Shown here in pieces: positions 10,596-52,303 of a stretch of DNA of 64,000 bases. The DNA is from Halorubrum salipaludis. GTDB taxonomy: Archaea > Halobacteriota > Halobacteria > Halobacteriales > Haloferacaceae. Below the pieces are notes generated by a model. The model ran no database searches. It was not told the origin of the DNA and worked only from the letters and a program-made list of their open reading frames with translations. Each line of letters starts with the position of its first letter. Positions within the stretch are counted from its first letter, which is position 1. The DNA lies in the NCBI RefSeq assembly GCF_002286985.1, contig NZ_NSKC01000009.1, positions 124,001 to 188,000 of the forward strand. The letters are read 5' to 3'. Made by a program: the position numbers and the translations under genes.

Positions 10596-10706
10596 GGCGG
10601 CTCGATCGGCGGCGCTGAGGCGCCCTGCTCTGCCGGAACGAACCGAACCGCACGGCGAAGGACGCCTCTTGATCGACGGCGGGAGTAGGTGAATCATTTC
10701 GGAGGG

Positions 10707-11110
10707 TCGGTTGTTTATAAGTCGGATTATGATGGTGCTGGCGGGTTTTTATAAGCGATCGACGATGCTGCGGTGAACAGCTTCAAAGCCCCAGTCGCGA
10801 GGACTCGCGCGGCTTGGTGCGCTCCTCGTCACTCGCGTTGCTCGTTCCTGCGGTGCTTCCGTCGCCGTGCTTCGCCCTCGCGACTGCCCCTTTGAGTCCC
10901 ACCCGACCGCAGCCTCACGCCTCCCCAGCCTCGTCGGCCGGCGCTTATAAGCGCCGGCCGACTCCCTCGCGCGTGCTCCTCGGCCGCAAAGCGGCCTCGG
11001 AGGCACACGCCACCGCTCCGTTTTTATAAGTAGTCGTCGACGCCGCTCACGGCTGTTGAAATACCGTCTCGCCACTACCCATCTGCAACACTCACTCCCG
11101 CAGTCCATCG
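10707..11110 (-). repeat. Structured dispersed element, copy A
   Basis: First of four related intergenic elements, here in minus orientation between two converging genes. In element order it contains the GTGAGTGTTGCAGAT start block, a TATA-like box (11023-11030), hairpin 1 (arms at 11003-11009 and the matching GCACGCG beyond a ggccgc/gcggcc inner stem), a perfect 30-bp palindrome centred on TTATAA (10933-10962), the conserved GTGGGACTCAAAGGGGC segment, a third stem (10876-10886 with 10792-10802, 11 perfect pairs) and the end box CTTATAAACAACCGA. Its stem-3 sequence is entirely different from that of copies C and D, yet still pairs. No protein-coding reading is convincing. Confidence 0.88.
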
Positions 11111-28450: not shown

Positions 28451-28762
28451 GGCACCGATCGATAGCGGGAGTGAGTGTTGCAGATTAGTGGATGCGAGAG
28501 GATATTTAAAAGAACCGTGAGCGACGGCGACGATCGCTTATAAATGACGACGCGGTGGCGCGTGCCTGCGAGCGGCCGACAGGCCGCGAGCAGCACCGCG
28601 CGAGGGAGTCGCTGGCGCCTTATAAGGCGCCAGCGACGAGGCTGGGGAGGCGTGAGGCTGGGGAGACGTGAGGCTGGGGCTTTGGAGGCCTTCACCACAG
28701 ACACGTCGATCACGTATAAACAGCCGCTAGCGACACCACAATCCGACTTATAAACAACCGAT
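28451..28762 (+). repeat. Structured dispersed element, copy B (lacks stem 3)
   Basis: Second intergenic element, plus orientation. It keeps the start block with GGGAGTGAGTGTTGCAGAT, TATA-like cttataaa at 28537-28544, hairpin 1 from 28559 (inner stem gcggcc/ggccgc with a gaca loop), a perfect 30-bp palindrome centred on TTATAA at 28608-28637 and the end box CCGACTTATAAACAACCGAT. The GGGACTCAAAGGGGC segment and the whole of stem 3 are missing; three gtgaggctgggg-like repeats stand at the junction. It accounts for most of the 475-nt gap 28359-28833. Confidence 0.88.
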
Positions 28763-28833
28763 CAGCCAATTTGCCATACGTACTCCCGGTATCGATCAAA
28801 AGCGGATCTGTTTCGGTGCCAGCTACGAGGCGG

Positions 28834-31981: not shown

Positions 31982-32290
31982 CTACTTATAAACAGAGTCG
32001 CGGTGGCGCGTGCCTCTGAGCGCCCATCGGGCGCGAAGAGCACGCGCGAGGGAGTCGCTGGCTCCCGGAGCGAAGCGGAGGGTGCCAGCGACGAGGCTGG
32101 GGTGGTGTGAGGTGCGGTTGCGGTGCGGAGCGGGTGGGACTCAAAGGGGCAACCGGGAGGTCGGCAGAGGCGACGTAAGCACCGCAACGAGTGAGCGGAG
32201 CGAACGAGTGAGGAGCGCAGCGAGCGTCTGCCGACCTCCCGGTTGGGGCTTTGGAGGTCTCGTCCGAGCTGTCAGTGACACCGATCACGT
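31982..32290 (+). repeat. Structured dispersed element, copy C (ends degraded)
   Basis: Third element, plus orientation, starting at the TATA-like cttataaa (31985-31992) shortly after the arcS stop; the upstream start block and the final end box are missing or unrecognisable. Hairpin 1 starts at 32007 (inner stem gcgccc/gggcgc). Stem 2 keeps nine-base arms 32054-32062 and 32084-32092 but the TTATAA centre is replaced by a different loop. Stem 3 is an 18-bp perfect inverted repeat, 32151-32168 with 32227-32244, different in sequence from copy A and by a compensated pair from D. Confidence 0.86.
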
Positions 32291-51710: not shown

Positions 51711-51774
51711 GCGGATCGTCGTCGAAACATCCGACGAGAAACACTCGCCGAGAAGATCTAGGAGGGATTGACAC

Positions 51775-52197
51775 GGCGGCGATCGATAAACGGAGTGGGT
51801 ATTGCAGATCGGTAGCGGCGAGACGGTATTTAAGTATCCGTGAGCGACGGCAACGACCACTTATAAAAACGGCGTAGTGGCGCGTGCCTGTGAGGCCGCC
51901 TCGCGGCCAAGCAGCACGCGCGAGGGAGTCGGCCGGCGCTTATAAGCGCCGGCCGACGAGGCTGGGGAGGTGTGAGGTGCGGTTGTGGTGCGGTTGTGGG
52001 TGGGACTCAAAGGGGCAGCCGGGAGGTGGGCAGAGGCGACGCAAGCACCGCAACGAGTGAGCGGAGCGAACGAGTGAGGGGCGCAGCGAGCGTCTGCCCA
52101 CCTCGCGGTTGGGGCTTTGGAGGTTTTCACCGGAGCGTTATCGATCACTTATAAACAGCCGACAGCACCACCACAATCCGATTTATAAACAACCGAT
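51775..52197 (+). repeat. Structured dispersed element, copy D (most complete)
   Basis: Fourth and fullest element, plus orientation, between two converging genes. In order: start block gatcgataaacggagtgggt, TATA-like cttataaa (51860-51867), hairpin 1 (51881-51887 with 51914-51920; inner 51894-51899 with 51903-51908), a perfect 30-bp palindrome with TTATAA at its centre (51928-51957), GTGGGACTCAAAGGGGC, stem 3 (52023-52034 with 52093-52104, twelve pairs), GGGGCTTTGGAGG and the end box CCGATTTATAAACAACCGAT. It fills most of the 593-nt gap 51711-52303. I see no credible gene in it. Confidence 0.9.
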
Positions 52198-52303
52198 AAA
52201 CCGTAGTGATTCAGGTACTCCCGCCGTCGATCGGGGGTGTGCGCTTCGGCGGGCGGTCGAGTCGACGAGGGGAGCTCAAACGGGCGAGACTCGACGCGTG
52301 TTT

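Follow-up and report, generated by a model that had tools for sequence, protein, structure and literature searches.

The hairpin-bearing sequence repeated in the window (the whole stretch of 64,000 nucleotides of Halorubrum salipaludis DNA that was analysed) belongs to a dispersed element which we read, with a probability of roughly one half, as a hairpin element similar to REP/BIME that an IS5-type MITE carries in Halorubrum and that is maintained by selection on the folded (probably DNA) strand together with conversion between copies. Describing the hairpin core and the MITE together as a modular hairpin-array repeat of haloarchaeal chromosomes appears plausible to the same degree. The known part is the IS5-type MITE in Halorubrum; the new part is a widespread main-chromosome hairpin core with sheared G·A motifs, and no published description of the hairpin-array element was found in the literature. 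A broader and still tentative proposal is that of a haloarchaea-wide chromosomal element whose hairpins, made of short Watson-Crick steps alternating with tandem sheared G·A pairs and often GNA-capped, are selected as single-stranded DNA, and which, borne by an IS5-type MITE in Halorubrum, would mark gene ends of the main chromosome as a topological, replication or recombination site.

Copies in the window and their spread

The original prediction had described four copies (A to D) with a common order of blocks and with pairing arms that differ in sequence among them; all four are real and laid out as stated. In hairpin 1, copies A and D pair GGCCGC with GCGGCC, copy B pairs GCGGCC with GGCCGC, and copy C pairs GCGCCC with GGGCGC. 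A 30-bp palindrome without mismatches forms stem 2 of A, B and D, its place in C being taken by an imperfect hairpin. Stem 3 of copy C is made of 18 perfect pairs (AACCGGGAGGTCGGCAGA/TCTGCCGACCTCCCGGTT), and the linker GTGGGACTCAAAGGGG is identical in A, C and D and absent from B, where stem 3 was lost along with it. The limits first proposed for the element were nevertheless too narrow, as 430-bp inner blocks are bounded by CGGGAGTG inverted repeats and complete copies run on through arms of 75–80 bp to GGCTCTGTTGAAA ends (Table 1). The outer arm of copy D appears strongly decayed.

Table 1. Positions in the window of the parts of copy D and of the other three copies.
Feature	Position	Strand	Remarks
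Copy D, outer arm, alpha type, degenerate	51713..51790		assigned by eye against the arm consensus (47 copies)
Copy D, inner block between CGGGAGTG-type inverted repeats	51791..52223	+	inverted repeats degenerate here
Copy D, TATA-like motif CTTATAAA upstream of core	51859..51869	+	conserved in Halorubrum; absent in most copies shown from other genera
Copy D, hairpin 1	51880..51921	+	GA only on the 5' side, AA opposite; tandem GA/GA in most copies
Copy D, hairpin 2	51928..51957	+	30-bp palindrome, centre TTATAA
Copy D, G-rich conserved core 20-mer GAGGCTGGGGAGGTGTGAGG	51958..51977	+	
Copy D, conserved linker GTGGGACTCAAAGGGG	52000..52015	+	base of stem 3
Copy D, hairpin 3	52008..52119	+	arms 52008-52037 and 52090-52119; inner part GA-rich
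Copy D, two direct repeats TTATAAACARCCGA	52149..52196	+	near right end
Copy A, inner block	10687..11100	-	inverted repeats, three hairpins, linker
Copy B, inner block	28466..28788	+	both inverted repeats present; has lost stem 3 and linker
Copy C	31982..32290	+	core-only, without MITE ends

Four copies turned out to be an undercount, the genome having about 145. Indeed, the pattern RAGGCTGGGGWGGYGTGAGG, which covers the linker after hairpin 2, was found at 145 sites of the 3.5-Mb genome with up to 3 mismatches (~100 of them exact), versus a single site for the reversed control of the same pattern. The inverted repeats CGGGAGTGRGTNTYGCA occur at 68 sites of this genome (0 in the control) and enclose the core-bearing 430-bp block in about 25–30 copies. 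Outside them lie the alpha and beta arms, 75–80 bp long and terminating in GGCTCTGTTGAAA, for which a consensus was built from 47 copies; the inner block was found in both orientations relative to the arms. Most core copies are without recognisable MITE ends.

The core has the order [hairpin 1]-GCGCGAGGGA-[hairpin 2]-GAGGCTGGGGAGGYGTGAGG-[G-rich spacer]-GGGACTCAAAGGGGC-[hairpin 3]-GGGGCTTTGG. Its linkers are conserved throughout the genus and recognisable in four other genera, while the hairpins vary in sequence and keep their pairing, their tandem G·A mismatches and their short loops. A DNA search matched the element in all 52 sampled genomes of Halorubrum. In a class-wide sample, searched with up to 2 mismatches, the core 20-mer was present in 15–195 copies in each of 46 genomes of the genus; outside it a few genomes reached at least 100 copies (121 in G225, 136 in G196) and most had none. 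A scan by genus name placed the 20-mer mainly in Halorubrum, and also in Haloparvum, Halorussus, Halobellus and Halosimplex. Several copies from other genera retain the succession hairpin - CGCGAGGG - hairpin - GAGG[CT]TGGGGAGG - later linker - hairpin. Their hairpins differ widely, and at the base of their stem 3 CTGAAAG...CTTTCAG replaces CTCAAAG...CTTTGgAG, that is, both sides are changed but complementary.

Core-only copies L020, L025, L014 and L028 are followed by ~57-bp tandem repeats (GGCTGGGGCTTTGGCGGTGTTCACCGTCGATCTGACAGCAACCATTTATAACCGAGC). A second insert of ~50 bp with two hairpins (AGGGCGAGAGCGAAGCTCTCGCTTGCAACCGGACGTAGTCCGGTGAC) has 12 matches in this genome (G000 C1:63846, C1:69163, C1:44673, C23:131933 and others, L328-L337), and several of these inserts adjoin or interrupt hairpin 1 or 2 of the element. 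Two contigs (C23:3-314 and C27:3-314 of G000) start with the same piece of an element, so it is the repeat that sets a limit to the assembly.

Transposon ends and turnover of copies

Complete Halorubrum copies are 574–631 bp long (typically about 575–590 bp), non-coding and without a transposase gene, and their outer ends read GGCTCTGTTGAAA[CT]CC. They are flanked by degenerate 8-bp target duplications, with 5.86 of 8 positions matching versus 2.70 in shuffled pairings (p = 3.5e-4), a statistic that rests on 7 complete copies, the four window copies not being among them, and on duplications read from the copies themselves, as the intergenic DNA of relatives is too diverged for exact empty sites. 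An IS5-family transposase gene (NF033579, E = 1e-64; PF01609) lies between the same GGCTCTGTTGAAA ends in a transposon of 1418 bp (L297:1116-2533) having a target duplication that matches at 8/8 positions, and a further IS5 copy, with an in-frame stop, is found on contig C5 of this genome (L285:706-2356, 1651 bp, duplication 8/8). The right arm of individual elements is 75–88% identical to that of the L297 transposon over 58–75 bp, and the target duplication is 8 bp long in both. As ends and target duplication are common to the IS5 transposon, and no transposase is encoded, the Halorubrum element falls within the definition of a MITE. An IS5-type transposase would have moved it in trans.

The original prediction did not recognise a named family. 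This stands for Rfam, which gave 0 gathering matches in the window and, at a relaxed threshold, only chance-level ones; on the other hand, the IS5-family ends amount to a match with a known transposon, which the prediction itself had taken as an outcome that would speak against it, and the covariation is unaffected by it.

The same GGCTCTGTTGAAA ends also enclose core-less cargo (L156, L151, L248 and L257), including a cassette with a 124-aa membrane-protein frame (L156:1938-2536, duplication 8/8) and one with a 351-aa lipoprotein-like frame (L151:4105-5407, duplication 7/8). The further cassettes lie at L248:1016-1649 and L257:1281-2499; none of the four encodes a transposase of the IS5 partner type, and their genes are small and of membrane-protein or lipoprotein-like type. 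It may be the IS5 transposase that mobilises these gene cassettes. Variable passenger DNA was also observed between the transposase gene and one end in both IS5 transposons, L297 and L285. An IS6-family transposase was discarded as the partner, its PF13610 matches having other ends (GGTCGCGTTAAG) and being merely nested in some copies; one such insertion, with its own ends, lies within a hairpin element copy at L273:1354-2647. No autonomous element bounded by the inner CGGGAGTG repeats was found, the longest repeat pair being 625 bp.

Copies turn over between relatives. Copy B is missing from the syntenic site in G017, G027 and G051, which speaks for mobility, and is present there in G014 and G036. 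At the site of copy C the core is present in three species (the orthologous site being occupied in two other species), and hairpins 1, 2 and 3 are all different. Copy L009 is a mosaic, its left part corresponding to L006/L007, its middle ~110 nt to window copy A (L004) and the sequence beyond to L006 again (identical). The mosaic and the exchanged hairpins at site C indicate that hairpins are swapped by recombination as well as altered by point mutation; hairpins are exchanged between copies by gene conversion. In G036, G019 and others the genes that flank copy D (window 51775-52230) are separated, and G036 has elements at both junctions. Such a break in gene order would be expected if copies recombine.

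Evidence for selection on the fold

The original prediction had taken arms that change and still pair as the mark of selection for hairpins, and this was upheld by pairing, covariation and half-swap tests: the element pairs well beyond chance. In hairpin 1 (46 equal-length sequences), 98% of the cells pair versus 79% after shuffling, 9 of 15 pairs have both of their bases changed and the covariation score reaches 0.462 versus 0.142 (sd 0.012); in the GGA-type hairpin 2, pairing is 98.0% versus 89.0% and the covariation score 0.280 versus 0.114. Pairing and covariation scores exceed all 500 shuffles, in sets picked by length and shape, a choice that favours structure, although slid and shuffled controls are still far lower. 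For 41 dissimilar representatives of hairpin 2, the mean folding energy of -21.9 compares with -13.2 when halves are swapped between copies, corresponding to a loss of ~40%, and with -12.4 for shuffled sequences. Not every difference between hairpins, however, is stepwise compensation as had been assumed: the covariation is real, but many differences are whole-module swaps by recombination. Covariation among dispersed repeats can thus stem partly from module exchange, and alone is no proof of RNA.

The hairpins are further characterised by GA/GA internal loops, counted 415 times in 485 hairpin sequences versus ~20 in dinucleotide shuffles, and by GGA/GGA internal loops (37 versus ~0.3), both counts coming from a folding program that rewards tandem G·A, a reward for which the shuffles control only in part. 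Copying of one arm from the other (palindrome correction) would give GA/TC, so that GA/GA needs selection for a folded single strand, and these loops also tell which strand folds. The excess of G·T over A·C in fixed structures (24 to 5 and 7 to 3, in total 31 to 8, counts that are not independent as the copies are related) likewise identifies the + strand as the folding strand. A pseudoknot between GCACCGCA (stem 3) and TGCGGTGG (5' start) gained no support when its covariation was inspected.

Chromosomal setting, alternative readings and known systems

Of 189 core copies, 182 fall outside the genes predicted by a simple gene caller. Convergent gene ends host 91 of 179 copies (51%), compared with 250 of 969 gene pairs (26%) at the same loci (p = 3e-11), a preference that could reflect purifying selection against insertions near promoters. 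In the complete genome G017, the 2.74-Mb main chromosome holds all 70 copies and the replicons of 526 kb and 431 kb (0.96 Mb) have none, a placement with P of about 8e-10 if copies were uniform; a replichore strand bias was rejected on the same list, which shows mixed strands. Only two weak matches to the element came from plasmid records and none from phage records or viral contigs, whereas 120 haloarchaeal plasmid records match the IS5 partner. A later arrival of the secondary replicons, along with their different base composition (PMC5018182), may be all that the chromosome restriction reflects.

The original prediction had left RNA and DNA side by side as the folded molecule. DNA is favoured by the type of loop, by the restriction to the chromosome and by the absence of a conserved promoter, and we lean towards the folded strand probably being single-stranded DNA rather than RNA. 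In the cleaner sets, triloops cap 112 of 152 sequences of hairpin 2 and 105 of 138 of hairpin 1 (74–76%); over all hairpins there are 170 C-GNA-G loops, 12 GNRA and 0 UNCG, a count for which the hairpin-1 slices took in some adjoining sequence. Both GNA triloops and sheared G·A pairs occur in DNA minihairpins and Streptomyces telomeres (PMC7205883; PMC6479982). Alternatively, the copies may make up a family of structured non-coding RNAs, many of them being transcribed and acting as RNA. The strong covariation would agree with it, but is equally expected of a single-stranded DNA structure; it would also agree with the single folding strand, the conserved unpaired linkers, the tolerance of RNA for tandem G·A pairs and triloops, which tells against the DNA reading, and the TATA-like CTTATAAA, which in Halorubrum precedes the core at a near-constant distance and from which the RNA would be transcribed. 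For Halorussus, Halosimplex and Halobellus, however, most of the copies shown lack that box, G·U makes up only ~2–4% of the pairs, GNRA and UNCG tetraloops are nearly absent, Rfam gave no match, and wholesale hairpin swapping and a family of more than 100 diverging copies are each unusual for an RNA gene, so that we consider this reading unlikely.

No more probable is a purely selfish IS5-type MITE, with hairpins that only seem conserved through youth or mutual conversion and bring the host no gain. MITE ends and target duplications, the mosaic copy L009, the cargo variants with the same ends and the sporadic distribution outside the genus all fit it, yet copying alone leaves unexplained arms that are unrelated and still pair, and tandem G·A kept on both sides while the flanking pairs change. 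Moreover, the core (about 145) is more conserved and commoner than the inverted-repeat ends (68 sites), is present in other genera, and is nearly absent from plasmids, where the IS5 partner is common. Convergent genes flank half of the copies, and the core 20-mer lies at a median of ~200 bp past the upstream gene, as would suit a bidirectional transcription terminator or a 3'-end processing hairpin, but this reading is by far the least probable: archaeal terminators are generally U-tracts that need no hairpins, no T-run follows the hairpins of the element, the remaining copies have other surroundings and show no orientation bias beside co-directional genes (34 vs 31), and a strand-specific tandem G·A would be superfluous for a bidirectional terminator. 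Under the preferred reading of a REP/BIME-like element under selection on its fold, the + strand would fold as DNA whenever single-stranded, on the lagging strand, in a cruciform or in an intermediate of recombination or transposition. Where convergent genes meet with their 3' ends, the element may, by analogy, serve the host as a REP/BIME-like topological or replication landmark and recombination site.

REP/BIME sequences resemble the element in their more than 100 copies, intergenic location, convergent-gene preference, one-strand hairpins, mosaic units and role as recombination or rearrangement sites. Its palindromic copies are likewise more than 100, intergenic and often convergent; REPs, on the other hand, are units of 20–40 bp with GTAG/CGTC tags and a Y1 transposase, whereas the element spans 250–590 bp with three hairpins and IS5-type ends. 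BOX, ERIC and similar bacterial repeats are modular, structured, intergenic and possibly MITE-derived; the likeness to the element lies in this modular description, but they belong to another domain of life and their hairpin motifs differ.

Among haloarchaeal repeats, the MITEs of Haloquadratum walsbyi, of which the cited parts of PMC3119063 give 55 in all per genome in 5 families, are likewise non-coding and have transposon-shared terminal inverted repeats, a target duplication and no transposase, but no covarying hairpin core, chromosome restriction or cross-genus presence is described for them in those parts. The IS605-type PATEs are, according to the same parts, also non-coding haloarchaeal repeats with palindromes, which are near-terminal and without terminal inverted repeats or target duplications (PMC3119063). 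The palindromes of our element are central, and its terminal repeats and 8-bp duplication rule out PATE/IS605 membership. Streptomyces telomeres share with it a series of palindromes, GNA triloops with sheared G·A, compensatory changes and a single-stranded DNA structure (PMC7205883); the element differs from them in its internal, dispersed sites rather than chromosome ends, in its extensive tandem G·A and in having no link to telomere proteins.

If our reading is true, haloarchaea would have a counterpart of bacterial REP/BIME arrays, with one copy per ~20 kb of main chromosome, whose hairpins would be tied to chromosome rearrangement, copy D sitting at a gene-order break in relatives. It would also provide a natural set of hundreds of covarying hairpins, rich in GNA loops and in sheared tandem G·A, that could be tested under the very high KCl concentration of the haloarchaeal cytoplasm. 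The conserved 20-mer GAGGCTGGGGAGGYGTGAGG, present in all copies, has four G-runs and could form a two-layer G-quadruplex in high KCl.
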